Origin: Isoetes taiwanensis
Taxonomy: Eukaryota > Streptophyta > Lycopodiopsida > Isoetales > Isoetaceae
Length of the DNA: 64,000 nt
Assembly (NCBI GenBank): GCA_021234155.1
Contig: JAJEKV010000111.1
Coordinates: forward strand, 2,052,968 to 2,116,967
Reading direction: 5' to 3'
The notes under the pieces are model-generated. The model saw only the letters and a program-made list of their open reading frames with translations, was not told the DNA's origin and searched no databases. This document shows, in pieces, positions 1,280-38,269 of the stretch. Both the position numbers and the translations under genes were made by a program. Positions within the stretch are counted from its first letter, which is position 1. The number at the start of each line of letters is the position of its first letter.

Positions 1280-1924
1280 TTAAACAGACAAAATAGGGGC
1301 ATCAAAGGGTGATACACTTAGTCGGATGAACCGCAATTTGAGAAGCTCTTGCAATTGCTTTTTAAGCTCCGTTAATTCAGGTGTACTCATTCTGTATGGA
1401 GCCTTACTAATAGGTTTAGTGCCCAGTTCCAAGGTAATTTCATATTCCACGCATCGGAAGTGTGGCAACCTATGAATCTCTGGAAAGAGGTCATAGTATT
1501 TCCGAAGAACGGCTGCTATTGTCGGGGGCAAGCTATCAATAATCTCCTCCTGTTTAGACTTGGCGTCTACTGATGCAAGCCTAATAATACAAGTAACCTG
1601 ATACTTCTTGATGGCTTTATCTAACTGACACAATGAAATACACTGCATAATTGGAATAACTGGTTTACCTGCTATGGTTACCCGAGCTCCATTAGTTGCG
1701 TTAAAGGTGACCTCTTGCTTTTCACAATTAATGTTTGCCTTTGCAGCAGCCAAGAATTCCATACCCACAATAAGGTCATAATGACCAATATTCATGATCT
1801 CGGCCCCTAGAACAACGAGTGCTCCTGGCAACTGAATATTCAAACTGATGCATCGCCCTTGTGTATGGCATACGACCCCACTAGCCAACGTGACTGGACG
1901 TGGCTTTGACTTCAAGGAAGTCAC
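1280..1924 (-). pseudogene. Protease C-lobe and RT N-terminus (copy A pol)
   Basis: The first half of this 214-codon stretch is the second half of the retropepsin domain, including IGHYDLIVGMEFL, which matches the hydrophobic-G-M-x-hydrophobic motif of Ty3/gypsy proteases. The second half is the linker and the RT fingers start ([18 protein letters not shown], then SVSPFDAPI). The protease C-lobe is informative because the full copy at 25-38 kb lacks this stretch of roughly 60 codons. The frame is lost after SPFDAPI, where the next piece (933-1277) begins. Confidence 0.85.
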
Positions 1925-20265: not shown

Positions 20266-21785
20266 TATGGTGCTCCTAGAATATATACGATGCTCCCATA
20301 TAAATACGAGAACCCCCCTTTCGTGGTAACTACATCACCATGGAAGGGCCCGCTGTCTAACTCGGACCACTTGGAATGGCCAAGTGTTTGGGCGAGGAAC
20401 ACGGAGGTGCCATTCGTTCCACGTCCTCTATGGGAATCTTATATAGTGGCAGCATACATACATGTTAGCACACAACAATCATGCCCAAATAATATACCAC
20501 CACGAAGGGTGGTCCATCCATCAACATCATCTACAATGGTAATACAAGTACAAGATAACATAAGTAATACGTCATAACCAAGGGCTCTACCCTTGGCTCA
20601 CACTCCATGTGGTCGACTGACGGTCAGGGCCACAAGATATCAACACACAGAGGTATAACGTAGCGTTGGCTGGCATAGAACAATGCTAGGGTAGTCCACT
20701 CCATCCGCCCCTCATGTGCACACTTTGCAAATAGGCTGAAACATGTTATGGCGTGAGTGTAGCCCTCCGAAGACGCAATCCCATGGAATCACCCTATGAG
20801 ACTACTAAGGGTTACATCTCCCCGATCCGATGAGGCAGGTCAGGGAGGCGTCCCCTTCCCGAACATGACGAATCCCTGGGCGTGCTAGAGAACATGTGCC
20901 ATCCACTCAGTGACCCTGTATCCGTACCCGACTTACTCCCCTAAATCTAAAGGCCGGCTCTCCGCACCCAGAGTCCAGGACGTCTATATAGGCACGTCTC
21001 CTGTGACCCAGGGAGTGTCAGACCCATACCTGGCCCACACTCAGTGACCGGCTATAAGCCTAGCACACTATAGGAGTCCTGCAGCCAAGCTTGGCAAGAC
21101 CCCATCCTTGATTCACCATCATACCCGTTGTTTGGTGCTGAATCACACCATAGCATCCACAGCCAGGTGGGCTCTTGTGCAACTGGATCTTAAGGGTTCT
21201 AGCTAGAAACATATCTACTTAGGAAGCTTTCAGGTCTCTACCCTCCACTTAACCCCAAACACACAGGAGGAACAGAAAGAGAGAACACAATCACAATCAA
21301 ATTATCCATCATCATCGTAGCAACACATAAGAGAGAAATTAACTATTCCATCTAATCAAAGAAGTGTTAGCTGAAGCACAAACTATCTAAGGACTAACCG
21401 GTCCTTTGGCTGGAGCCATTGTCACGAAAGGCTTCCATTCTTCAGTCTGGTCATAGCAGCGGGTAGCTCCTCCTTCCTCCAACTCTCCCCAAATTGATTT
21501 GGGGCAGAATTGGGAGTAGGGCCCCAATTTGCCCTCTAAACTTGGCAAGTCCCCCTTGGCCAATCGATTTGGGCCAGGTGGCACTGCCATATTGGTTAAC
21601 TTTAACTAAGTAATAACTTAATTAGCCTAATTAGGTTAATTATTCTCTAATATTTTAGCATTGCTAATGAAAACCCTTTCAGGTTAGCCCAAGTTAACCC
21701 CTATTGACCCCTAAGGGTCTAATTATATCCTGGTGACGTGTCATAATATGTATACGTATACCGTATAAATACCTAGAACGTCACA
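20266..21785 (-). mobile_element. Diverged LTR related to the H3 element family (5' LTR of a truncated copy)
   Basis: On the minus strand it starts TGTGACGTTCTAGG (21785) and ends next to a primer site (20264). The length (1520 bp) matches the 1547-bp LTR at 25149. It shares blocks such as the reverse complement of CCAGGGAGTGTCAGACCCAT and the palindromic first 50 bases. No second LTR was found in the window, and the internal region is cut after about 200 bases, so this is a 5' LTR plus leader remnant rather than a solo LTR. Confidence 0.8.
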
Positions 21786-25143: not shown

Positions 25144-25148
25144 TAAAT
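25144..25148. repeat. Target site duplication, left copy (TAAAT)
   Basis: TAAAT immediately before the 5' LTR matches TAAAT at 38265-38269 immediately after the 3' LTR. Five bases is the usual Ty3/gypsy duplication length. This fixes both element boundaries. Confidence 0.92.
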
Positions 25149-26695
25149 TGTGACGTTCCAAGTATTTATACGATGTACATATAAATATTGAACACGTCAC
25201 TCGGTATAGGTACGCCACCTGGGGTATGATAACCTAGGGGGTTGGCCACAATGGATTTAATTAGCTATGTTAACCAAATTATAAAGGATAACTATCTAAA
25301 GACATGTGATTAGGTCAATCCATAGTAGGAAGGCGCCATTTGGCATAACCCGGGTGGCCAGCATGTCATATCAGCCCAATTTCGACCCAGCAAAATGCCA
25401 GAAGCAGCTGAGCACTCAGGAAACAGTTGCTGTTCGTCCCCAGATCGCCAAATACCCTTTATTTTGTTCTTTGTTACCCCCATCTGACCCCATGGAAGCA
25501 CCCTTGACAACGGGTCCAAATAGAAACTACGGTTAGTGGTAGTTAGTTTGCAAATTGTAGAATAACACTCTGGTATTCTTTTCTGGATAGTTTTGGGTGA
25601 GATTAACCCTTCTTTGGTAATTAGGAATACTTTTCAATTATGAATGATGCTCTGTTATGGGATGGTCGATGTCTCTATGAGTCAGTTTAGTCGCCTCCAA
25701 TGCTTGAGGGGGATTAAAAGGGGGGTAGAGGCCTCTGAGCTTGAGTATAGAATGCTCCTAGTATTTCCTTTAACACCCTAGTAGTTTCGGCCTGTGCGCA
25801 AGAGCCCACCGGGTCATAGACGCTATGGTCTGGCTTAACACCAGACAAGGGACACAGTGGTGAAGTAGGGGGTGGGGTCTTGCACGAGCATAAAAGGCTC
25901 CTGAGACTCCTACAGTGGGCTAGGCCTGATAGCCGGTCACGTGGAGGGCCGGGTATGGGTCTGACACTCCCTGGGTGTAGTGGTGTGACCCGTATGGGGC
26001 ACCATGCACTTTGCGTAGAATTAGGGTGAGTAAGTCGGGTACGGATGCGGGGGTCGCTGATGCGGCACGTATTCTCTAGCTCACCCACGGAACCACTGTG
26101 ATCCTGGAAGGGGACGCTTCCCCGACCTGCCTCATCGGACCAGGTGTCATGAACCTGGAGTAGGCTCAAAGGGTGATACCTTGAGTCTGCGTCTCCGGAA
26201 GGCTATAGCGAAGCCATAGCGTGAATCGCATCTGCAAAGTGTGCACAGGAGGGGCGGATGATGTGGACAACCCTAGCCGATGTTCTATGCCAGCCAACGC
26301 CATGCCAAGATTCGGTCTGCCGATCTCCTGAGACCCAGCCGTCAGTCGCTCCCCCACTAGAGTCTGAGCCAGGGTAGAACCTGGGTTTTGGGGTGTTTTC
26401 TTAGTTTAGACGCATATTCTGTGTTGTTAGTATTTGGATGGATGCGCCACCCTTCAGGGTGGCTATTTGTATATGATCTATGCGGTGTGCTAACCCTTGT
26501 ATTCATGCTTCCGCGACGTAGGCGCCCATCGAAGGCGTGGGCCGAATGACCCCTCCGTGTCATTCACCCGAGCGTCTCTACGTAGACGGCCCGGGTTAGA
26601 TGGAGGGCCCTGCTCGTGGCGAGTTGGTCGCCATGGGAGGGGAAAGTCCCCGTATGTATACGACCGAGGGTCGTATATATTCTGGGAGCGTCACA
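25149..26695 (+). repeat. 5' LTR of copy B (1547 bp)
   Basis: Begins TGTGACGTTCC and ends GCGTCACA. It is near-identical to the 3' LTR over roughly the last 1000 bases (I counted about eight small differences). The first ~550 bases differ more, including a segment of about 40 bases present only in the 3' LTR. The outermost ~50 bases form an imperfect palindrome (TGACGTTC ... GAACACGTCA). Confidence 0.95.
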
Positions 26696-26696
26696 G

Positions 26697-26708
26697 TGGT
26701 ATCAGAGC
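26697..26708 (+). other. Primer binding site, initiator Met tRNA
   Basis: TGGTATCAGAGC starts one base after the LTR end. It is complementary to the 3' end of plant initiator-Met tRNA and is the usual first-strand priming site of plant Ty3/gypsy elements. Confidence 0.93.
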
Positions 26709-27015
26709 CGTGATTTCGGTTGCTCGAAATCATAGCACTGGCCAAACACTAACTCGTAGTACGGTAGTTAGGAGGAGGCTAAGTTAATGTGTTGTTAGTC
26801 CTCTTTGATGTTTGGTTCGGTGTTAGGTTAAATTAAGAAATTGTAACTTCAAAGAGGATAGGGCGATTGGAGGGCCCAAGATTGGAAGAGATGTAAATAT
26901 CAGTGGGTAGCTCAAAAGACGGAGAAGGTGGTTCCATTGGATCGGGCGTACTCAAATTACCCTAGAACAGTCGTCTCCAGGCGAAAAATGGTCAAGGGCA
27001 GGCCCGAAAACCAAC

Positions 27016-27192
27016 TCGGGCGCCGCTTGCTTTTTATCGTCTTGCAGTCACGGTGGAAGAGCCGAAAATGCAGTCGGCGCCCGACCGTACAGATGGGAGC
27101 CAACGGGGCCCCGCAAGGTCAACTCGGGCGCCGTTTGCTTTTCGACGACCCCCAGTCGAGGCGGGAGCACGTATAATGCAGCCGGCGCCCGA
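27016..27192 (+). other. Paired leader hairpins with identical GGCGCC-containing arms
   Basis: Two tandem units (period 108 bp; 27013 and 27121) each contain TCGGGCGCCG (27016-27025; 27124-27133) followed about 50 bases later by its exact reverse complement CGGCGCCCGA (27075-27084; 27183-27192). The arms are identical in both units while the loops have diverged considerably. They lie in the 5' leader between primer site and ORF1, where retroelement RNAs usually carry packaging or dimerisation structures. Confidence 0.7.
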
Positions 27193-27484
27193 CCGTATGC
27201 CTCGTGTATTTCCGCCGTATAATTATTTTATAATAATAAAATTAAAAAAAGTTAATAGGAAAATTTTAAAATTTCAAAAGTTATCTGGCCGTTCAAATTT
27301 CTTCTTGTTGTTTGTTTTGCCTTGCCTTTAGCACCTTCGACCGCCAGAGCCGCCGCCCGCCATCGCCACCGGACTTGACTCTGCTTTTTCACCCTTGTGC
27401 CTTGTGGACCCTAGCGCCTCCCTTGCCGCCTTTTCCGCCACCAGCGCCTCACCGCTCGACTTCTTAGACCTTAGTGCTACCGCT

Positions 27485-28093
27485 ATGGCCAATACCAAGA
27501 GTGCCCCGGACCCTTCTACCCTCAGCATAGTGGAGATTTATGCCATGATCGCTCGGTACATGGCTACAGACCCGGCTTTCATCGACATCCTTTTGGATGA
27601 GTTGGTGAACCGGTTTGAGAACAACGATAGGATCCCCTATCCTATCTATCACTTCTCGGAGCCTTTCCTGATCCGGCTGAACCTTCGCCAGCTCTCTTAT
27701 ACTATTGTCGAGCAACATGACATGGTCATGATGCTGATCAAGTTCTATCCTCCTGAACAAGAGGGGCATACCGAGGAGGAGGACATCAGGGCAGAAGCCG
27801 ATCGTATCAGAGGTTTGGCCAAGGAAGATGACCATCGGGAGATTGAGCGAGCAGATACGGCGGCTCGGGGAAGAGAATACCGGTACCTCGGGGACGGCTT
27901 TGCCGTCATAGATGGCAGGGCAATTGAGGTTCCCCCATACCATTGGGACGAGGATAACCACAGTTTTATTTGGGGAGAAATCCCCGATATCAGCATAGAT
28001 TATCTGACGACCATACAGATCGATATGGGCCTGCGGCCTCAGCGGTACCATGCTGCACTTCTTCGCCGAAGCGCAGCACAACACTTCGCTTAG
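27485..28093 (+). CDS. ORF1 head: unknown domain upstream of a histone H3 fold
   Basis: Starts at the Met of MANTKSAPDP, preceded by a GC-rich leader. The frame is open further upstream, but the copy A start matches this position. Residues ~10-90 are predicted helical, with a conserved block DRIPYPIYHFSEPFLIRLNL and LIKFYPP. Residues ~95-140 are very acidic/basic (EEEDIRAEADRIRGLAKEDD). A YRYLGDGFAVIDG segment and YHWDEDNHSFIWGE follow. A TAG (28091-28093) ends it after SAAQHFA. The same frame continues without further stops through a charged linker into the H3 fold, and copy A has sense codons at the matching place, so this stop looks like a copy-specific mutation. I recognise no family for the head. 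A gag-like or nucleic-acid-binding role is possible but unsupported. Confidence 0.85.
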   Translation: MANTKSAPDPSTLSIVEIYAMIARYMATDPAFIDILLDELVNRFENNDRIPYPIYHFSEPFLIRLNLRQLSYTIVEQHDMVMMLIKFYPPEQEGHTEEEDIRAEADRIRGLAKEDDHREIERADTAARGREYRYLGDGFAVIDGRAIEVPPYHWDEDNHSFIWGEIPDISIDYLTTIQIDMGLRPQRYHAALLRRSAAQHFA

Positions 28094-28729
28094 GTTCAAG
28101 AAGATCTGAGGAGAGCCGGGGAGGAACGGGAGAGACTTGAACAGGAGGAAAGGGCTCGGCAGGACCAGCTGAACCCGCAGGACGGAGGGGCAGCTGGGAG
28201 TGGGTCGGGCCCAATCCCGACAGAGCATGTAACTGTGAAGCACTGGAGGAAATCCGTTGCCCGAAAATCCGGCAGTCAATATAAGGACAAATTAAAGACT
28301 GTCGGAGCTTTTGGCAAGAATACCAGCTCCAGTCGGAGACAGCAGCGGGTGGATAGCTCCCGACCGGCTGTTGGGGCTAAGACGGTGCCAGCACCGAAGG
28401 GGCCGCCTACAAAACCCGCCCCACAAAGGAAGCCCCATCGGTACCGACCCGGTACCTTGGCCTTGCGGGAAATCCGCAAGTTCCAGAAGTCCACACAGCT
28501 TCTGATATGGAAGCTACCCTTCCAGAGGCTGGTACGGGAGATCGCGCAGCAGTTTAAGACCGACCTCCGTTTCCAGACCTTTGCAATTTTGGCGCTCCAA
28601 GAGGCTGCTGAAGCCTACTTGGTGGCACTTTTTGGTGACGCTAACCTTTGCGCGATTCACGCAAAGAGAGTTACCATTATGCCAAAGGACTTAGCCCTCG
28701 CCCGTAGGATTCGGGGGGAGCATCCTTAG
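28094..28729 (+). CDS. ORF1 tail: histone H3 fold domain encoded by a retrotransposon
   Basis: In frame with the ORF1 head after the TAG. The first ~110 codons are a Lys/Arg/Ser/Pro-rich linker ([15 protein letters not shown]). From 28430 to the stop at 28727 comes a histone H3 core, aligning without gaps to H3 residues 37-134: [71 protein letters not shown]. By eye it is about 85% identical to plant H3. Retained are K56, K79, C110, H113, K115, R116, K122, D123 and L126. Changed are R63 to W, D77 to Q, G102 to A, E105 to G, T107 to A, I124 to L and Q125 to A. Y41 and L90 are as in replacement H3.3. The modifiable tail (residues 1-36) is missing. No CENH3-type long loop 1. The same fold is in copy A. 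Confidence 0.95.
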
Positions 28730-28861
28730 CATATCTTGATGGGCTCCGCATTGTACATATTTTCTTGCGTTTAATGAAAAAAAAAACTTTTTATTTTGTA
28801 TTAAAAATTTAATTTTTTCGTATTAAATATGAAAAGAATTGCTGACGTCAGCTTAAATAAA
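28730..28861. other. AT-rich spacer after H3 ORF
   Basis: About 130 bases with A and T runs (AATGAAAAAAAAAA, TTTTTATTTTG) that sharply break the GC-rich coding composition. It resembles a 3' UTR or intron. Contains the TGACGTCA site. Confidence 0.5.
28843..28850. promoter_or_regulatory. TGACGTCA palindrome downstream of H3 ORF (copy B)
   Basis: TGACGTCA inside GCTGACGTCAGC, about 115 bases after the H3 stop. Conserved at the same position in copy A (2435-2442), while flanking bases differ. It matches the bZIP/TGA-factor core. Confidence 0.5.
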
Positions 28862-29064
28862 GAATAGAATAGAATAGAATATGATTTTATCGTCCACGGA
28901 GACCAACTGGCCTATGGGACCCCAAAGCATTAAAAGTATGGTGGTTGGATGCAGCACTGAGACTTCCCGGGAGGTCACCCATCCCAGTACTATTCCGGCC
29001 CAAGCGCGCTTAACTTCGGAGTTCTGATGGGATCCAGTGTGGTAGCGCTGGTATGACCGCAAGG
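28862..29064 (-). mobile_element. SINE-like element with 5S rRNA-derived head
   Basis: On the minus strand: a 5S rRNA-like head (29064 down to about 28945), a ~60-bp body containing GGTCTCCGTGGAC, and a (TATTC)n tail ending at about 28861. The body and tail motif (plus-strand TCCACGGAGACC ... CTATGGGACC) recurs at 45.25 kb and 56.43 kb without the 5S head. This is the layout of 5S-derived (SINE3-type) retroposons. It sits between ORF1 and ORF2. No certain target duplication (possible TTAAATAAAG versus TTAAAAGAAC). Confidence 0.75.
28945..29064 (-). pseudogene. 5S rRNA-like sequence (about 120 nt)
   Basis: The reverse complement carries 5S landmarks in order: GGTCATACCAGC, GGATCCCATCAGAACTCC, AGTTAAGCGCGCTTGGGC (covering the A-box/intermediate internal promoter region), AGTACTGGGATGGGTGACC (C-box region) and a CCCGGGAAGTC end. 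It is full length but deviates from the plant 5S consensus at several places, including both ends. Any Pol III transcript would run antisense toward the H3 ORF. As a host 5S gene it is unlikely, since it is single copy and fused to a SINE tail. Confidence 0.8.
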
Positions 29065-29136
29065 AGTTAAAAGAACTTTTAAAGTTCATTTCAATTGTTA
29101 GGTTGTTTCTCTTCCTCTCACCTCCCTTCTAGCGCC

Positions 29137-30060
29137 ATGGCCGCCGTTGATCTTATCGCCTGGTACCATGACGGAGAGCAATGGGATCCGCAAGTCCCTT
29201 TCGACCTGCTGCGGCCCTTGCTCTGCCAGCGCCTAGACCTCCTTGCCAACATGCTGCGGCATCCAGATTATGCCGGATTTCTAGATTTCTATAGGGAGGA
29301 GATGCTCCCTCTGTGTATTCCCCTTGGGGATCCTCCCCAACTATATCTGGAGCGGGAGGTAGTCCGGGAGATGTTAGGAGGGGACACTCATGCATATGAT
29401 GTGCTGAAGGGAAAGCTCCGATGGGGTAAACACCTGCCCGTTGTGCAGCATCAGGGGCGGCAATACCTTGAGGTCGCCTTCGCCCTAGCTATCCTCATGG
29501 ACCAATACGTCGAGGATGAAACCTTGCCTGTAGAGAAAGGCAAACTGCCTGAGTCATCCGAGGAGGGGGAAGACGAACACATAGGCATGGGCGACTTCGC
29601 CCGTTGGAAGCAGCTGGCGGAAGAGCTGCCACCGCGCCGTGAGCAAGCTGTAGGCTTGTCAGGGCTGGATGCCCTTCCAGTTATTTATCACCAAGGGCAA
29701 GAATATCTTCTCTTGGATGATATTATCTGGACTTATCACATGGTGGCCGGATTTAGACGCAAGCGTAAAGACCATGTGCTTTATGAACTTGCGGAGTATT
29801 GTATGGATGACTTCATCGACTTCACTTCTATTGAGCTACCTCCGGAGGTGCAGCAGCTGCTCCAGTTCCGTCAGGAGACTATCGAACCCGCCGAGACATT
29901 GCTACGGCTTCGGGACTTCGTGATGCAGGAGCCGGCCTCTCAGCCCTCACCAGATGCCTTCACGGCTATGGGACCTCACGTCCCAAATATCAATATGGTT
30001 GAGGTTCCCTCGGGTTGGATGACGAGGGAGAGGATTTATATCATAACCCTGCTCATGTGA
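29137..30060 (+). CDS. ORF2: unknown pre-gag retrotransposon protein
   Basis: Starts at the Met of MAAVDLIAWYHDGEQW, which has a good plant-type context (GCGCCATGGCC). The frame stays open for about 307 codons. It looks helical and acidic: LLRPLLCQRLDLLANMLRH, DVLKGKLRWGKHLP, an acidic ESSEEGEDEH linker near residue 165, then YHQGQEYLLLDDIIWTYHMV. There are two similar modules: LPVVQHQGRQYLEVAFALAI and LPVIYHQGQEYLLLDDIIWT both read LPV-x-x-HQG-x-x-YL, suggesting an internal duplication. I recognise no domain. The frame is lost near 30015 and the protein continues in another frame to 30536. Confidence 0.8.
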   Translation: MAAVDLIAWYHDGEQWDPQVPFDLLRPLLCQRLDLLANMLRHPDYAGFLDFYREEMLPLCIPLGDPPQLYLEREVVREMLGGDTHAYDVLKGKLRWGKHLPVVQHQGRQYLEVAFALAILMDQYVEDETLPVEKGKLPESSEEGEDEHIGMGDFARWKQLAEELPPRREQAVGLSGLDALPVIYHQGQEYLLLDDIIWTYHMVAGFRRKRKDHVLYELAEYCMDDFIDFTSIELPPEVQQLLQFRQETIEPAETLLRLRDFVMQEPASQPSPDAFTAMGPHVPNINMVEVPSGWMTRERIYIITLLM

Positions 30061-30536
30061 AGGAGGATCAGCAAGAACTTAAGCAAGAGGAGGTTTCCAT
30101 GGATTCGGATAAGGAGGTGGCCACATCAGAGACCCCGCAAGGGAAGGTATCGGGCAACCACCTTACCCGTTTCTTTTTGTCAGCCTTTCGATAGGGGCAA
30201 GTCCTTTTTATAGCCCGGGATTTAGGGCCGGAGGCTGAAGCTTCATGGTGGGCCCTCCATGCTCTCTCTACACTGGCCGGGCACAAGAAGCTCCCCTATC
30301 GTACATTTACTTATGTACTCGTGCGACGGGATCTTGCCCTGACGGCCTTAGGTCAGGATATTGCGCCCTGGATGAGCATGAAGCTCCTTACGGCAGCCCC
30401 ATTGGCCGTTGCCTATCCACCCGAGGTTGCATCTATTGCGGCTGCCACTGTAGACCCCAGGGTGACTCTGCTGCGACACCGACCGCCACCACCACCTCCT
30501 AGGCCTACGGATGAAGAGGGAGGACCTAGTTCCTAA
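30018..30536 (+). pseudogene. ORF2 C-terminal part, frameshifted
   Basis: Continues ORF2 in a different frame with an acidic segment (GEDLYHNPAH), then HLTRFFLSAFR, a TAG at 30192-30194, then SWWALHALSTLAGHKK and a region ending in a proline run (RPPPPPPRPTDEEGG) before the stop at 30534. Composition (GC-rich, coding-like) continues across both breaks and drops just after the final stop, supporting that this is the true C-terminus of ORF2 in the ancestral element. Confidence 0.65.
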
Positions 30537-30731
30537 GTAATTGTACTACGCGTTTTTTTTTTGTATTGTGTACAGTTTTGGTTTGGCAAATACTTTAGCC
30601 ATTTTATAATATAATACACCCTTTTTCTTATTGATTGTGGTTACTGTCTAAGATGAATATAATTGAGAATTGTTTCTTCCCATGCTGTCTTCTTCTAATT
30701 ATTGGCGTTTGGAATATAAGGGAATTACAGA

Positions 30732-31220
30732 ATGTTCTATATTCATTGTCATTGTCTTGCAGAGGAGACCCTTTGGGAATATGAGGAGAGGATTATTGAC
30801 ATGATTCGGAGGGAGGATCCAGGGCCGCCCGAACAGGACTATGGCCAAAGATATGGAGAATATCCAGAATGGGATGACGGCTATGAGATGGAACCCCTGC
30901 CACCAGGGGAACCCTATGATCCTGACAAAGGATTGGAGATAGTTAACATCCTTAGGGACAGAGCTTTCCAGGACCTCAAGCAGACGTTGTGCCGTACCTG
31001 GGACTATTGGAGCATGACCAGGCACGAGGCTTTCGAGGACGCCAACGACCACCTATGGCAACTCTTCTATGCTCTGCGAAGGCTTTTCAACCTCCTCATT
31101 GTTAGCCCAACATGGGAATACCAACCAGTGATTGTCCAAGCCTGGGCACGCTACAAGCTCGTTAGGGCTATGCGTGAGAGTGTTCGCTATTCAATTCTGT
31201 ACCCCTTTGCGAACCCCTAG
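30732..31220 (+). CDS. ORF3: small unknown acidic pre-gag protein
   Basis: About 162 codons from the first Met. A splice-acceptor-like sequence (ATTGTCTTGCAG, ending 30772) precedes the GC-rich coding-like part, so the real protein may begin there or at the Met at 30801 (MIRRED). Residues show an acidic stretch (EYPEWDDGYEMEPLPPGEP), then helices with Trp-rich spacing (LCRTWDYWSMTRHEAF, HLWQLFYALRRLFNLL, YQPVIVQAWARYKLVRAM). No family recognised. It ends at a TAG, 235 bases before gag. Absent from copy A because of the deletion there. Confidence 0.7.
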   Translation: MFYIHCHCLAEETLWEYEERIIDMIRREDPGPPEQDYGQRYGEYPEWDDGYEMEPLPPGEPYDPDKGLEIVNILRDRAFQDLKQTLCRTWDYWSMTRHEAFEDANDHLWQLFYALRRLFNLLIVSPTWEYQPVIVQAWARYKLVRAMRESVRYSILYPFANP

Positions 31221-31455
31221 GCCGGATCTTTCTAGTTTCGTTTTTTTTATGATGTTTGTGAGTTCACTCTAAGTTCCAGTTGTATCATGTTATCTTTGTA
31301 TAATACTCCTGTACCAACTTTTGGTGTGAGACTGTAATAGGAAAGTTTTTCCTCTTATAATAATAAATTCCCTTTGTGTTCTCTCTCTATCCCTTTGTTC
31401 GACATGCTACAATTTGTAAGAATTTATCTGTTATAAATATGCTTATACCTTTTTC

Positions 31456-32979
31456 ATGCTCAATTTAGACGGTGCCCGTAACACCGCTTGGCAGACACCC
31501 TCCAATGCCAGTAGGCTGACTCCTGAACAGGAACTGATGATAATGAAAAGGCAGTTAGGCGAATTACAGGCCTATGTACTGCATGCCAACCCACCGCAAC
31601 AAACCCAGGAAGATGGACCCAACTTACCTCCGCTACCACCGAGTCCACCTGCACAACAGCCATCTCCCCCTGGAGCTAGTCCTGTACCTGCACCGAGGAG
31701 GCCTCATGCTAAGCGTCACCGAAGTTCCTCTAAGGATAGTGCCACTTCCTCACGCTCAACCACTTCGGGGTCTTCTGGTTCATCGGTATCAGCTGGGGAC
31801 CATGCAAAGCGCCGGGATAAGGAGTACCGTAAGACGGTTGATACCGCCATAACTAGCATATGGAAGAATAGGAAATTGGCCCAGTTTGATGGAAAATCTA
31901 GAGGCGGACTGAATGCAGAGTCCTGGTTGGACGAAATGAAGGAGTTCGGGAAGTCTTATGGCATGACGGAAAAGGATACAGGAAAGGTTGCCACCACCAA
32001 CCTTACAGGAGCTGCCCGTATTTGGTGGAAGGGCTATGCCAGGGCCAAGCATCTGGACAGGAGCAGATGCAACTTCAGGAAGTTTGCCAAGGCGTTCAAG
32101 TCGCATTATGTGCCTCGTGCGCACAAATGCCAGCAGATTCAAACCTTCTATAAGTTGGAGCAGAAGGGTATGTCGGTCCAGGCTTACACTGATGAGTTTA
32201 TGCGCTTGAGGCTGTATGTTCCAGGAATGAATGAAAAGAGAGCCGTAGAGGGTTATATTGAAGGGTTGGCCCCATCAATTAAACGGATGGTTAAAGCCAT
32301 AGACCCAAAATCAGTTGCGGAGGCTGAGGCTAAGGCATTGAGTCTCGAGGAGGACACACCAAGAATTCAGTATCCGCGTCCTACTCCTTATTCGCAGCCC
32401 CGGCCAGCCACACCATACAAACCCCGTTCGCCAAGTCCGGGCCCTTCTCAACAGAACTCGTATAGCCGGCCGGAAAAGAAAGTTACTTTCAGCACAGCTG
32501 ACAAACAGAGCAATGTCGGCAAGGAAGTACGAAGCCTCTTACAGTCTATTCCTAAGGAGGCCCGAGAACAGCTTCGCCGGGATAAGGCATGTTACAGGTG
32601 TATGCGACCTGGGCACTTTATGCACAACTGTCCTTATGTTACACAGACTGCCCAGCTGGCCATGGCCGACCTCGATTGGGACGAGCTGGAGTCAACCTTA
32701 CCTGTCGAGGACGAGGCTCCTGAGTATATTCATGGTGCGTCTCATATTCTTGCAGCTATAGAAACCGGCAATGCCGAAAGTCAGCCTGCTGTCATTTCCA
32801 CCATAGGTCAAGTAGACAGTAAGCCTTTTGTAATTCTTATGGATACGGGAAGTACACATAATTTTGCTTCCCCTAGAATGACTCAGGTCTTACAGCTTGA
32901 AACATTAAGGTCTCGACCAAGGCCTGTCACTCTAGCCAGTGGTAAGGTCAGGCATACTCATGGCCGTCGCAACTATTAA
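31456..32979 (+). CDS. Gag with CCHC knuckle and protease N-lobe
   Basis: 507 codons. Residues 1-130 are Pro/Ser-rich and low in complexity. About 140-290 are the Ty3/gypsy capsid domain (retrotrans_gag: [45 protein letters not shown]). The CCHC zinc knuckle [14 protein letters not shown] is at residues 379-392. The protease active site [17 protein letters not shown] follows, with catalytic Asp at residue 463. The frame then runs off into a stop soon after HTHGRR. Compared with copy A (1280-1924), the protease C-lobe of roughly 60 codons is deleted here, so protease should be inactive. Gag and pol form one frame in this family as in many chromoviruses. Confidence 0.95.
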
Positions 32980-34228
32980 AGGTGAACCCTTCAACCCTAT
33001 CATGCAGTCTATGTCCATCAGACAGTTAGTTAAAGCTATACGCAAGGAAAAGCTCCTCTGCATCATTTCCCTTGCGTCCATAGAGTCAGATGCTAAACAG
33101 AAGCAAGTAATCGATATCTTGCCAGAAGGGATTGCTCGTCTTCTCCGGGAATTTGGTGACCTTTTCCCAGATGAGATTCAGAAGCTTCCTCCTTTTAGAG
33201 GGGTGGAATGTGAAATAGCTTTAGAGCCGGGTACCAAGCCTACTAGCAAGGCCCCGTACCGTATGAGTCCTCCAGAATTGGCAGAACTTAAGAAGCAACT
33301 TCAGGAGCTATTAAACCTAGGTTTCATCCGACCTAGTGTTTCGCCTTTTGGCGCTCCTATTCTCTTCATTAAGAAAAAGGACGGCTCGCTGAGGATGTAT
33401 ATTGATTACCGGCAACTTAACAAGCATACCATCAAGAATCGCTATGCTTTGCCTAGGGCAGATGACCTAATGGATCAGTTACAAGGGGCTAAATATTTCT
33501 CAAAGATTGATCTACGCTCCGGATACCATCAGATAAGGATCAAGGAGGAGGACATCCATAAATCCGCTTTTCGCACTAGGTATGGGCATTATGAATTTAC
33601 AGTTATGCCTTTTGGATTAACTAATGCCCCAGCAACGTTCATGCGACTAATGAATGATGTCTTCCGACAATACTTGGATGATTTTGTTGTTATCTTCTTC
33701 GACGACATTCTCATCTATAGTAAGACCCTCGAGGAGCATAAGAAACATCTCAGATTAGCCCTCCAAAAGCTAAGACGTCATCAGCTCTATGCTAAGTTCT
33801 CTAAGTGCAAGTTTGCCACTCTGAAGGTCGATTATTTGGGCCATATCATTTCGGCAGAGGGAATTACTACAGACCCCGCAAAGATAGAGGCCGTAAGAGA
33901 ATGGCCTATTCCAGAGAATGTTTCCGAAGTCCGCAGTTTCTTGGGATTAGCAGGCTACTATCGAAAATTTGTAAAGGATTTTGCGAAGATTGCAGCTCCT
34001 CTTACAAATCTCACAAAGCATGAGAAGGTGAAGGATTGGAGGGACCACTGGAAGACAAAAGTTCAGCAGAGTTTCCAGCAACTTAAGGATGCCCTAACAT
34101 CAGCACCAGTTCTCACATTGCTCGATCCTGAACAGGATAAGCTAGTGGCGACCGATGCCAGTAAAATTGCCACCGGGGGAGTCCTAATGCAGGGGGGAGG
34201 GTTATTGCTTACGATTCAAAGAAGATGA
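32939..34228 (+). CDS. Reverse transcriptase and start of RNase H
   Basis: 429 codons in a frame different from gag, because of the protease deletion; the first ~10 codons are out of register and the homologous part starts near [12 protein letters not shown] motifs: [34 protein letters not shown] (first catalytic Asp), [15 protein letters not shown], and FFDDILIYS with the catalytic Asp pair at residues 255-256. The thumb/connection region has [12 protein letters not shown], then RNase H starts with [12 protein letters not shown] small indel near 34190-34210 ends the frame inside RNase H, the next product overlapping at 34225. Confidence 0.95.
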
Positions 34229-35349
34229 ACGAGACGGAACAACGATATCCCACCCATGATCAGGAACTGTTGGCCGTTGTCTGTGCTCTGCGGATATGGA
34301 GACACTACCTTCTTGGTAGAAGATTCCAGTTGGATACGGATCATCAAAGTCTCCGTTATTTATTCACCCAACCAAATCTCAACCTCCGTCAGAGAAGATG
34401 GATGGAATTTCTCGAGGAGTATGATTTTGACATTATGTATAAGCCTGGCAAGCACAATGTGGTTGCGGATGCTTTATCACGCCATCCCTTGGTGACCCGA
34501 ACCCATTGTAATGCCATTTCTACACTCACCAGTGAGTTTGGGAAACAGATAGAGCAGACCTTGGCCACAGATCCAGAGTTCTGTGACATTTGGGACAGTT
34601 TGGCTAAGGAAGCTCGCACGGATGCGGAATGCGAGGCTTTTCGTGCATATAAGAAGGAGGGCAACTTATTGTATCACAAAGATAAGTTGTGTGTGCCAGA
34701 GACTTCAGGAGTACGGAAGCTCATTCTTCATGACACACACAATAGCCCTATAGCTAGACACGCAGGTTTTATGAAAACCTACTTTAAAATTCGTTCCAGT
34801 TATTTCTGGCCTTCCATGAAAAAGGAAATTGCCAACTACATTAGGCAGTGTCAGGTATGCCAGCAAACAAAAGCGGAGCAGTTAAGGATTCCATGTGAGT
34901 TGCAACCTCTGGATGTGCCAAATGCCAAATGGGAAGTGATAACCATGGATTTCATTGTGGCCCTTCCAAGAACTCTCCGGGGATATGATGCCTTAATGGT
35001 TGTGGTCGACAAATTGTCGAAAATGGCTCATTTCTTGCCATGTCGTACCACGGATACCGCCTTTGATACTGCTCTGCTGTTCGCCAAGGAAATCTTCAGA
35101 TTACACGGAATGCCACGAGTCATTGTGTTGGATAGGGATCCCAAATTTGTAAGTGCATTCTGGAAAGATTTCTTTGCCACCATTCAGACCAAGCTTGCTA
35201 TGAGTACAGCATATCATCCTCAAACAGACGGCCAGACGGAACGTACCAATCGTATTATAGAGGATATGCTAAGAAGTTATGTGTGGAGTAAGCAATCACA
35301 ATGGGTCAATATATATTTATCCGGGTCGAATTTGCCTATAACAGCATGA
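34225..35349 (+). CDS. RNase H and integrase core
   Basis: 374 codons. Residues 1-90 complete RNase H ([41 protein letters not shown]). Integrase follows: HHCC zinc domain ([14 protein letters not shown] ... CQVCQQ), then a DD35E core with catalytic D242 (TMDFIVALP), D303 ([10 protein letters not shown]) and E339 (TDGQTERTN). The D-E spacing is exactly 35 residues. The frame is lost at about 35335 after SQWVNIY, where a small indel moves the rest of integrase to the next frame. Confidence 0.95.
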
Positions 35350-35531
35350 AACAGGAGTCTTCCAGAATGTCTCCCTTTATGATAAACTATGGTTACCAAT
35401 GTCTTACTCCAGACACATGGCATAATCCTGTTTCCAAGGTTGAGGTTTCTCAAAAACTCCTCCTGGAGATGCAGGCTCTGGTCGAAGAAGTTCGGGGCTA
35501 CTTATTGGTCGCGATCGTCGAAAGAGTGTAG
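35301..35531 (+). pseudogene. Integrase C-terminal core segment, frameshifted
   Basis: Continues integrase with [20 protein letters not shown] and a GYQCLTPDTW segment. A stop at 35529 is followed by a further frame change before 35565. The equivalent region in related elements is one uninterrupted helix-rich linker. Confidence 0.8.
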
Positions 35532-35564
35532 CCGATAAACCTGAGAACCCCACGCGCTTTTTCG

Positions 35565-36089
35565 GTGGGTGAATCGGTTTGGCTTAAGATTAAAGTAAAG
35601 CAGGCCAAGCTTAAGATTGGCAATTGCAAAAAGTTGGCCCCTCGATGGGCTGGACCGTTCAGGATTATTGAGCGCGTTGGAGAACAAGCCTATCGCTTAG
35701 AATTGCCACCCCGCCTGAAGATCCATAAGGTCTTTCACGTGAGCCTTCTGAAGCAACACACCCCTGATCCAGAGGAGGTTTTGGAGACCCCAACCCTCCT
35801 AGAAATGACAGAGGAGCAACTCGAAATAGTGCCTGAAGCTCTTCTTGATCGAGCTTACAAACAAACCAGAAGGACTCAAATGTTGCAATACTTGGTTAAG
35901 TGGAAACACTTACCAGTTGAGGATGCTACGTGGGTGATGAAGATAGACCTTGACAAGCACTATCCGGATTTCATGCGGGAATCTCAAGGCCGCACCATCA
36001 ACGATGCTATCAACCCCGCAGTCAGCGGTAAGCTTAGAAGCCTAATTACCAGGGGTGCCGCCTCAGAGGGGGGGATGCATCGTAGATAA
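35565..36089 (+). CDS. Integrase C-terminal domain with chromodomain
   Basis: First part: the integrase SH3-like domain with KLAPRWAGPFRIIERVG and RLELPPRLKIHKVFHVSLLK (GPY/F-type region). Last ~60 codons: a chromodomain-like module, ILDRAY-type linker, then QYLVKWKHLPVEDATWV and a C-terminal helix. In chromoviruses this module binds modified H3 tails and guides integration to heterochromatin. Of the usual aromatic cage, the W of VKW and the W of ATW can be seen; the first aromatic residue is uncertain. The final ~30 codons are an extra basic tail. The true protein is continuous with the preceding integrase segments and begins upstream of this frame. Confidence 0.88.
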   Translation: MGESVWLKIKVKQAKLKIGNCKKLAPRWAGPFRIIERVGEQAYRLELPPRLKIHKVFHVSLLKQHTPDPEEVLETPTLLEMTEEQLEIVPEALLDRAYKQTRRTQMLQYLVKWKHLPVEDATWVMKIDLDKHYPDFMRESQGRTINDAINPAVSGKLRSLITRGAASEGGMHRR

Positions 36090-36670
36090 TAACAAGTAGC
36101 CGATGATGAGATCACCTTGTGTTCTCTAGGACGTCGTGTGCTGTCAATAGCGACCTGACCACAACTTGTTGCAAGAGCATATAGTTGATAGGCCGCTTTC
36201 CTCTCGGCTACAATGGGAACTTGACCAATCCCTATGCTGCAAGGAACCGCAAACCATAGACATGATAGGTTCCCTGATAGATAGTATGTTTTTTTTCTTT
36301 AAGTATTCTAAGGGGGTGGGCCCTTCAACCACAATTTCATCATATGTACTAACACACTGGTATGTGCAGGCCAGTAAGCAGTACGTGCCCTGCCCATGCT
36401 AGAGGGTTACTGATGACCCCAACTCTTCAGTTTTGTTTTGCCTACATGTTTTGTTTATCGTTCCACTGATGTTGATATTGGACTTGGGTCCTTAAACTGT
36501 TGATTATGATAATCATGTTGAATGCACCACAGTGCTTCAAATGTTTTGCAAGCTTTAAAGTTTTGAATATATATATTACTTTTCGGAAAAATACCGGATT
36601 ACCTTCCTTCATAATGTATTTCTTTGTACATTTCTAACTAACCCCAATGCTGAGGACAGCATAAATTCTA
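36090..36670 (+). other. 3' untranslated region of copy B
   Basis: About 580 bases between the chromodomain stop and the polypurine tract. No ORF of note. T-rich runs occur around 36290 and a TATATATATA stretch at about 36570. Confidence 0.6.
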
Positions 36671-36682
36671 AGGAGGGGAGAA
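36671..36682 (+). other. Polypurine tract
   Basis: AGGAGGGGAGAA directly precedes the 3' LTR start, the expected site for plus-strand priming. Confidence 0.9.
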
Positions 36683-38264
36683 TGTGACGTTCCAAGTATT
36701 TATACGATGTACGTATAAATATTGAACACGTCACTCGGTATAGGTACGCCACCTGGGGTATGATAACCTAGAGGGTTGGCCACAATGGATTTAATTAGCT
36801 ATGTTAACCAAATTATAAAGGATAACTATCTAAAGACACGTGATTAGGTCAATCCATAGTAGGAAGGCGCCATTTGGCATAACCCGGGTGGCCAGCATGA
36901 GGGTTGCTAAACTAGGCCACCAAAGGGAAGCGCCATCCTCATATCAGCCCAATTTCGACCCAGCAAAATGCCAGGAGCAGCTGAGCGCTCAGGAAACAGT
37001 TGCTGTTCATCCCCAGATCGCCAAATAGCCTTTCGCTGTTGCTGTTACCCCAGTACAGCCCCATGGAAGCACCCCTTGACAACGGGTCCAGCCGAAACTA
37101 TGGTTAGTGGTAGTTAGTTTGCAAATTGTAGAATAACACTCTGGTATTCTTTTCTGGATAGTTTTGGGTGAGATTAACCCTTCTTTGGTAATTAGGAATA
37201 CTTTTCAATTATGAATGATGCTCTGTTATGGGATGGTTGATGTCTCTATGAGTCAGTTTAGTCGCTCCAGTAAACATGGATTAAAAGGGGGGTAGAGGCC
37301 TCTGAGCTTGAGTATAGAATGCTCCTAGTATTTCCTTTAACACCCTAGTAGTTTCGGCCTGTGCGCAAGAGCCCACCGGGTCATAGACGCTATGGTCTGG
37401 CTTAACACCAGACAAGGGACACAGTGGTGAAGTAGGGGGTGGGGTCTTGCACGAGCATAAAAGGCTCCTGAGACTCCTACAGTGGGCTAGGCCTGATAGC
37501 CGGTCACGTGGAGGGCCGGGTATGGGTCTGACACTCCCTGGGTGTAGTGGTGTGACCCGTATGGGGCACCATGCACTTTGCGTAGAATTAGGGTGAGTAA
37601 GTCGGGTACGGATGCGGGGGTCGCTGATGCGGCACGTATTCTCTAGCTCACCCACGGAACCACTGTGATCCTGGAAGGGGACGCTTCCCCGACCTACCTC
37701 ATCGGACCAGGTGTCATGAACCTGGAGTAGGCTCAAAGGGTGATACCTTGAGTCTGCGTCTCCGGAAGGCTATAGCGAAGCCATAGCGTGAATCGATCCA
37801 TCTGCAAAGTGTGCACAGGAGGGGCGGATGGAGTGGACAACCCTAGCCGATGTTCTATGCCAGCCAACGCCATGCCAAGATTCGGTCTGCCGATCTCCTG
37901 AGACCCAGCCGTCAGTCGCTCCCCCACTAGATTCTGAGCCGGGGTAGAACCTGGGTTTTGGGGTGTTTTCTTAGTTTAGACGCATATTCTGTGTTGTTAG
38001 TATTTGGATGGATGCGCCACCCTTCAGGGTGGCTATTTGTATATGATCTATGCGGTGTGCTAACCCTTGTATTCATGCTTCCGCGACGTAGGCGCCCATC
38101 GAAGGCGTGGGCCGAATGACCCCTCCGTGTCCTTCACCCGAGCGTCTCTACGTAGACGGCCGGGTTAGATGGAGGGCCCTGCTCGTGGCGAGTTGGTCGC
38201 CATGGGAGGGGAAAGTCCCCGTATGTATACGACCGGGGGTCGTATATATTCTGGGAGCGTCACA
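36683..38264 (+). repeat. 3' LTR of copy B (1582 bp)
   Basis: Begins TGTGACGTTCC and ends GCGTCACA, followed by the target duplication TAAAT. It carries a ~40-base segment (about 36900-36940) and a variable block around 37028-37060 that differ from the 5' LTR, whereas the remainder is nearly identical. Confidence 0.95.
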
Positions 38265-38269
38265 TAAAT
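38265..38269. repeat. Target site duplication, right copy (TAAAT)
   Basis: Matches 25144-25148 exactly. Confidence 0.92.

Follow-up and report, generated by a model that had tools for sequence, protein, structure and literature searches.

Histone H3 sequences borne by transposable elements have been described in fungi. The hAT DNA transposons of Pyrenophora tritici-repentis carry a histone H3-like protein, H3L, whose ORF lies beside an unknown ORF, as in the element described here (PMC3538342). According to the accessible text of that report, H3L matches neither normal H3 nor CENH3, is encoded by an ORF of its own, has insertions in the tail and possibly drifts, and the transposon moves by cut-and-paste and is present in 26 near-identical copies in the reference genome. 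In contrast, the element of Isoetes taiwanensis analysed here is an LTR retrotransposon for which at least 150 copies were scored and candidates run into the thousands; its H3 is fused to a larger ORF and combines deep divergence with purifying selection. A hAT element has also captured and amplified H3 in Pseudocercospora fijiensis and its relatives; that capture and amplification by a transposon is similar to the present case but, as far as the accessible text goes, it concerns a DNA transposon whose amplified copies were inactivated by RIP (PMC6710886).

Also among the closest known systems are the chromoviruses, including those of lycophytes, which likewise encode gag, protease (PR), reverse transcriptase (RT), RNase H and integrase with a C-terminal chromodomain (PMC3350952, PMC2864245). 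In the accessible parts of these two papers, the described chromoviruses carry a histone reader and none of them carries a histone; the Isoetes element further differs from them in having three extra ORFs before gag. The accessible description of the Galadriel-like chromodomain includes the loss of two cage aromatics (Y24, Y48) and the motif Y-L-V-K-W-K, which the YLVKWKHL of the Isoetes element resembles, a likeness of motif and of cage positions assigned by eye only (PMC3350952). A comparison can also be drawn with plant LTR elements that carry additional ORFs, for instance those of orchids with an AlkB demethylase: they too have kept a captured or extra ORF, in some cases with likely nuclear roles, as judged from the available portions of the sources (PMC7264820, PMC12786077). 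The term 'histone' does not occur in the accessible text of the 2020 review of additional ORFs (PMC7264820), of a review from 2026 on genes captured by plant elements (PMC13317346) or of the two Isoetes genome papers (one of them PMC8566536). A core histone carried by a virus, the H4 of bracoviruses, offers a parallel to an element-borne H3, but the virus-encoded histones belong to DNA viruses, and the words 'retrotransposon' and 'retrovirus' occur 0 times in the accessible text of the corresponding review (PMC9145170).

A reading of this locus made from the sequence alone (hereafter, the sequence-only reading) had known of no established class of elements carrying the histone fold itself. This is borne out for LTR retrotransposons, none of which was found with a histone in the literature searched, a partly accessible body that covers few subscription journals and no bioRxiv preprints, but not for transposons at large, given the published fungal hAT elements with H3 (PMC3538342, PMC6710886). 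Transposon-borne H3 as such is already known; what appears to be new within that literature is the retention of an H3 core under selection by a retrotransposon. Chromoviruses are known for reading histones; the Isoetes family has the H3 core itself, present in a large number of copies and maintained by selection, and the fact that this core has been kept intact suggests that the element uses a building block of chromatin for its own ends.

A chromodomain element with an H3 core

The stretch of I. taiwanensis DNA that was analysed (64,000 nucleotides, hereafter, the window) contains a complete Ty3/gypsy chromodomain LTR retrotransposon at 25149-38264 (Table 1). Its interpretation as a target-duplicated LTR retrotransposon was confirmed by the two LTRs of 1,547 and 1,582 bases, which have TG...CA ends and are flanked by a 5-bp target site duplication. 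In the blastn alignment of the LTR pair, 37 of 1,539 paired bases (2.4%) are mismatched and 51 positions are gaps, so the insertion in the window is fairly young. Both LTRs contain an open antisense reading frame of 151 aa, at 25714-26169 and 37281-37736 on the minus strand. We take the primer binding site TGGTATCAGAGC to be of the initiator-Met tRNA (iMet) type. The Pfam matches follow the order gag-PR-RT-RNaseH-INT, although the pol frame of the window copy is split over several ORFs and the match to the gag zinc knuckle is weak. The chromodomain at the C terminus of the integrase (PF00385, E 1.5e-8) is a feature of chromoviruses and, together with the H3 core, upholds the earlier description of a chromodomain Ty3/gypsy element that encodes a histone H3 fold. 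When eight ORF stretches were searched against Pfam, gag, RT and integrase were matched but a hAT domain was not, so the element does not belong with the hAT elements that carry H3L.

Table 1. Coordinates of the element's features in the window
Feature	Position	Strand	Basis
Target site duplication, left copy (TAAAT)	25144-25148		identical to 38265-38269
5' LTR, TGTGACG...CGTCACA	25149-26695	+	blastn vs 3' LTR, 94.5%, 1590 columns incl. 51 gap positions
Primer binding site TGGTATCAGAGC	26697-26708	+	sequence
ORF1 N-terminal part, 202 aa, conserved domain	27485-28090	+	no Pfam match
Premature in-frame TAG splitting ORF1 in the window copy	28091-28093	+	sequence, ORF list
ORF1 linker, acidic/coiled, then basic part	28094-28429	+	alignment of copies
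Histone H3 core, H3 residues 37-135, 99 codons	28430-28726	+	PF00125 E 3.3e-41; H3.3 E 2.2e-52
5S-derived SINE-like insertion, antisense	28862-29060	-	Rfam RF00001 at 28946-29064; junctions
ORF2, no Pfam match	29137-30060	+	ORF; match in 62/63 fetched element loci
ORF3, no Pfam match	30732-31220	+	ORF; match in 7/10 5-kb loci
gag (Ty3 capsid 31858-32349), zinc knuckle, aspartic protease	31456-32979	+	PF19259 E 2.5e-16, PF03732 E 6.1e-16, PF13975
Reverse transcriptase	33368-33850	+	PF00078 E 1.5e-39
RNase H, integrase zinc-binding and catalytic core	34225-35349	+	PF17917, PF17921, PF00665
Chromodomain, integrase C terminus, YLVKWKHL motif	35829-35975	+	PF00385 E 1.5e-8
Polypurine tract	36670-36682	+	sequence
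3' LTR	36683-38264	+	blastn vs 5' LTR
Target site duplication, right copy (TAAAT)	38265-38269		identical to 25144-25148

The first ORF had been read as running from 27485 to 28729 and ending in H3. It does start at 27485 and does end in H3, the core being its last 99 codons, but in the window copy it is not continuous: because of the in-frame TAG at 28091-28093, a full ORF1 protein cannot be produced from this copy by normal reading. The frame is open from the N-terminal part through H3 in other copies, among them L013, L018, L069, L070, L072 and L074-L077. In the ORF1 protein of about 420 aa the H3 core is C-terminal, and where a canonical H3 has its modifiable tail at the start of the protein, some 320 element-specific residues are found; the usual place of the tail is taken by the basic end of the linker, with R at H3 position 36.

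The core is of canonical length, and its best match among solved structures, aligned without gaps, was Histone H3.3 (E 2.2e-52). It differs from the commonest host H3 at 15/99 residues and from the Arabidopsis-type H3.1 at 17/99, so the identity of about 85% previously estimated by eye is correct. Centromeric CENH3 proteins have a longer loop 1 and a divergent core; with no loop insertion and only those 15 differences from host H3, the element H3 is not a CENH3, and its derivation from one was rejected on the sequence.

The 5S-derived insertion downstream of ORF1 consists of a full-length 5S rRNA sequence (92 bits), an unrelated body and a TTCTA-repeat tail, about 200 bases together. Among the 78 loci examined, the 5S match was confined to the window's own loci (L001 and L009), and the insertion is not part of the element family. 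A 65-base match to its body lies near the host gene of presumed H3.3 type in L053. Elsewhere in the window, positions 20685-20813 are 78% complementary to part of the 3' LTR and probably represent a related LTR in the other orientation, and an ORF at 1283-1924 (minus strand) with a match to a retroviral aspartic protease (PF08284, E 1.2e-5) probably belongs to another old retroelement.

Copies and lineages across the genome

The genome searched comprises 1,658,258,908 bases in 1,110 contigs. With the H3 core as the query, 8,899 first-look candidates were obtained, and all of the best 150, which were scored, matched at 93-100% identity (150/150). The ORF1 N-terminal query gave 3,520 candidates, of which again 150 were scored. 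A genome search with ORF1 had been suggested for finding further LTR elements that carry H3, and it did find them: in the 30 loci selected by the N-terminal part (L009-L038, window copy included), H3 was located downstream of that part in 30/30, with some of the H3 matches partial or frameshifted. A leader query of 611 non-coding bases, chosen to avoid protein-based selection, gave 1,024 candidates, of which 40 were scored. H3 was present within 2.1 kb downstream on the same strand in 22/40, 21 of these at about 1 kb (coordinates read by eye), and also in three other loci (L011, L016, L020) and in five pieces, some of them decayed (L080, L081, L082, L084, L085), for a total of at least 30/40. 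Eight of the other ten leader-selected copies contain the N-terminal part, with the H3 region outside the count, and the L079 piece covers the N-terminal part; in L083, ORF2 stands at the expected place of H3, so a deletion probably occurred there. The case that the sequence-only reading had named against itself, H3 inserted in one copy only, is contradicted by these counts. A host H3 pseudogene inserted singly, without the element's ORF1, was likewise rejected, since H3 accompanies ORF1 across copies.

Among the 63 element loci fetched (L001-L038 and L054-L078, some of them the same place), H3 was found in all 63, the N-terminal part in 62 (all but L056) and ORF2 in 62 (all but L076), and nearly all have the order N-terminal part, H3, ORF2. 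In ten loci fetched at 5 kb, gag was reached in 8 and ORF3 was matched in 7; in L076, gag follows H3 directly, with neither ORF2 nor ORF3 between them.

A control search of the same genome with H4 gave only 69 first-look candidates against the 8,899 for H3; of the 43 matches obtained, 16 were full length, at 99-100%. The expansion is thus specific to H3 as against H4, a comparison confined to these two histones. A plant H3 query identified 15 intronless host genes at 96-98%, one of which (L053) has T31, Y41, H87 and L90, residues that we take to be of H3.3 type. The other scored matches fell at 71-86%, and the 15 fetched from this class (L054-L068) were element copies, which suggests that most of the H3-like sequence in the I. 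taiwanensis genome is retrotransposon. This family therefore matters for genome annotation: according to the accessible text, repeats with a likeness to plant proteins were taken out of the repeat library in the I. taiwanensis annotation pipeline (PMC8566536), so elements carrying H3 may have been left unmasked.

Two lineages of ORF1, A and C, were compared. Lineage C consists of L074-L078, which were picked because their H3 match with the plant H3 query ended differently. In ten representative open copies, identity between the two lineages is 37% for the N domain, 31-32% for the linkers and 85% for the H3 core. The N-terminal domain had been called unknown, which agrees with the lack of a Pfam match, but it is conserved between the two lineages. 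For either lineage, a protein database search with the N domain returned no relatives at E <= 0.001 (1,745 and 505 word-sharing candidates), in a database that may lack Isoetes proteins, and in a search with the whole of ORF1, ordinary and tandem H3 proteins dominated the best 120 of 5,327. Single-sequence structure prediction gave a mean pLDDT of 40 for the N-terminal part of ORF1, yielding no assignable fold for this domain, and 39 for ORF2.

Over long stretches, identity to the gag of the window copy is 87% for L076 and 90% for L077, as compared with about 70-77% for some lineage A copies, whereas the ORF1 N domains of L076 and L077 are only about 36% identical to that of the window. The 5' part and gag thus have no single, simple history in common. 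Element families have probably recombined, and the gag and N-domain identities of L076 and L077 suggest that 5' modules were exchanged.

Constraint, residue changes and origin of the H3 core

The H3 core is under strong purifying selection, with dN/dS of about 0.02-0.14. In lineage A (38 rows), median dN was 0.014 and dS 0.55, with a ratio of sums of 0.024, and in lineage C (5 rows) dN/dS was 0.041. The 38 rows represent 37 places (L024 and L072 are the same place); L003 stood outside, and L009, L058 and L065 were dropped as same-place repeats. The N domain, for which equal-length pairs only were used, gave 0.056 in lineage A (29 pairs) and 0.135 in lineage C (6 pairs). Most of the rows behind these lineage values had been picked up through their H3 similarity, and an open frame was required of them; such sampling lowers dN and overstates the constraint. 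Open frames were not demanded of the 30 copies selected by their N-terminal part. Their H3 (29 rows, L028 being dropped for coverage) had a median dN of 0.027, dS of 0.50 and a ratio of sums of 0.139, and 3 of these rows contained in-frame stops. For the N domain, on which the selection was based, the ratio was 0.075, with stops in 2 of 30 rows. Judged by ratio of sums, the constraint on H3 therefore does not exceed that on the N domain in this sample, where frameshifted rows probably inflate the H3 dN. Synonymous sites were saturated in 183/190 pairs between lineages A and C and in 645/645 pairs between host and element.

Residues were compared at 97 positions between 44 element rows (43 places) and the 15 host H3 genes. 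At 62/97 positions all 44 rows stay within the host residue set. Six positions (86, 87, 102, 105, 107 and 124) differ from 15/15 host genes in 44/44 rows, position 89 is I in 42/44 and position 36 is R in 44/44. Positions 86 and 87 presumably fall in the patch, H3 87-90 in its usual delimitation, by which chaperones tell H3 variants apart, and we take 86-89 and 102-107 to be near chaperone-facing surfaces. Unchanged in 44/44 rows are C110, H113, A114, R116, D123, A127, I130, R69, R72, R83, F84, Q85, K115 and T118, which we take to be contacts with H3', H4 or DNA; nearly all positions of this kind are fixed in the element rows. Position 64 is changed from K to R in 5/5 lineage C rows, and W occupies position 63 in the window copy and L002.

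No alignable canonical H3 tail was found in lineage A, and in lineage C the likeness of the linker to H3 residues 4-27 was weak and non-significant. Among 2,000 shuffles, those that aligned as well numbered 90, 124, 161 and 1,055 for the lineage C sequences and 1,130, 1,217 and 1,953 for those of lineage A, so we refrain from reading the linker as a remnant of the H3 tail from which K9 and K27 had been deleted. The motif ARK(S/T)G occurs 50-59 residues upstream of the core in 19/31 lineage A rows in which the segment was found; the remaining 12 have AHK, VRK or ARKF in its place, and another 8 rows gave no such segment, mostly because the upstream frame is missing. In the window copy it reads ARKSG (28259-28273), 57 residues before the H3 core, and resembles the surroundings of H3 K9. 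The motif could mimic the K9 site, which we regard as a lead only; such mimicry would count against a simple view of the protein as an unmarkable histone.

A tree of the H3 sequences with host H3 and CENH3 had been proposed; it united the element H3s in one group (88/88) with lineage C inside it (96/90), but did not place the donor. One shared origin of H3 for both lineages is the best tree, with moderate support (the same 88/88), and the alternative of lineage C with host H3 had p-AU 0.129. An unsupported branch (49/0) set the elements, together with two long-branched CENH3 rows, apart from the rest. With that alternative not rejected and the branch unsupported, the tree alone cannot place the donor or the relation to CENH3. 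F87, A107 and L124, common to both lineages, favour a single capture.

Possible roles of the ORF1 protein

At a probability of roughly one half, we consider that the ORF1 protein associates with host H4 and either enters chromatin or docks on it, serving as the element's address or tether. A chromodomain Ty3/gypsy element would once have taken up the coding sequence of a host H3 and joined it downstream of a domain specific to the element, and the resulting protein, predicted to consist of the N-terminal domain, the basic-ending linker and the H3 core, would pair with H4 through that core. The pairing is suggested by the fixed contact residues and by the lack of a multicopy H4 that the elements could carry; with no multicopy H4 in the genome, the partner would have to be the host's. 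With the H3-H4 pair, ORF1 might be carried to chromatin by the histone chaperones of the host or through nucleosome assembly, and there provide an address or tether for the particle or DNA of the element. The altered 86-89 patch may change which chaperone ORF1 meets. With the normal H3 tail gone, a nucleosome containing the ORF1 H3 would lack the usual tail marks (K4, K9, K27 and K36) on that H3. H3 might also have been kept for some non-nucleosomal use, such as DNA or RNA binding, which counts against a chromatin tether. Further points against it are the broken ORF1 of the window copy, the N-terminal domain's want of an assignable fold, the H3 ratio of 0.139 in the N-selected sample, no lower than the 0.075 of the N domain, and the R at position 64 in 5/5 lineage C rows.

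More tentatively, the family may produce an H3 variant of its own, with an unmarkable tail and a rewired chaperone patch, that joins host H4 in nucleosomes on the element's DNA or target sites and so controls silencing chromatin. The related proposal that ORF1 replaces H3 in nucleosomes over element DNA, which would then carry no H3K9 or K27 methylation on that H3, so that the element escapes heterochromatin, is doubtful. It is consistent with the absence of an alignable tail in lineage A and of a significant one in lineage C, with R at position 36 in 44/44 rows and with the retained nucleosome contacts; yet a plain fusion would equally give tail loss, ARK(S/T)G in 19/31 lineage A rows could itself be methylated, and the N-terminal extension of about 320 residues may hinder assembly. 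The family is in any case a natural experiment on what a tailless H3 core can do, and a case in which to test whether mobile elements are able to alter the very nucleosomes by which they are silenced.

The remaining alternatives place the protein outside nucleosomes or deny it a role. As a decoy, ORF1 would soak up host H4, chaperones or H3-modifying enzymes and weaken silencing or assembly during transposition; the clustering of the fixed changes at 86-89 and 102-107 and the fixed, presumably H4-facing residues agree with this, but high ORF1 levels would be required and the DNA-contact arginines would be dispensable, yet R69, R72 and R83 are fixed in 44/44 rows, which makes the idea unlikely. 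Quite unlikely, too, is an extra nucleocapsid, in which the H3 core and basic linker would bind the element's RNA or cDNA in the particle: the basic linker and the fixed DNA-contact residues would fit, but gag already has its own zinc-knuckle match, albeit a weak one, and the residues that presumably face H4 and H3' would be free to drift and are nevertheless fixed. Host sequences can be captured and amplified without function (transduplication), and according to the accessible text, fungal hAT elements with a hitch-hiking H3 were later inactivated (PMC6710886); as an account of the Isoetes family this is very improbable in view of dN/dS of 0.02-0.14 across copies at dS of about 0.5 and of H3 having been kept by two lineages that share 37% identity in their N domains. 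We give practically no weight to the chance insertion of a host H3 gene or pseudogene into the window copy alone, with H3 found in 30/30 N-selected and at least 30/40 leader-selected copies.

The tether reading can also be set beside the state of the chromodomain, which retains one of the three cage aromatics (cage positions assigned by eye). It need not, then, read H3K9 methylation, and the histone may supply the contact with chromatin in its place.
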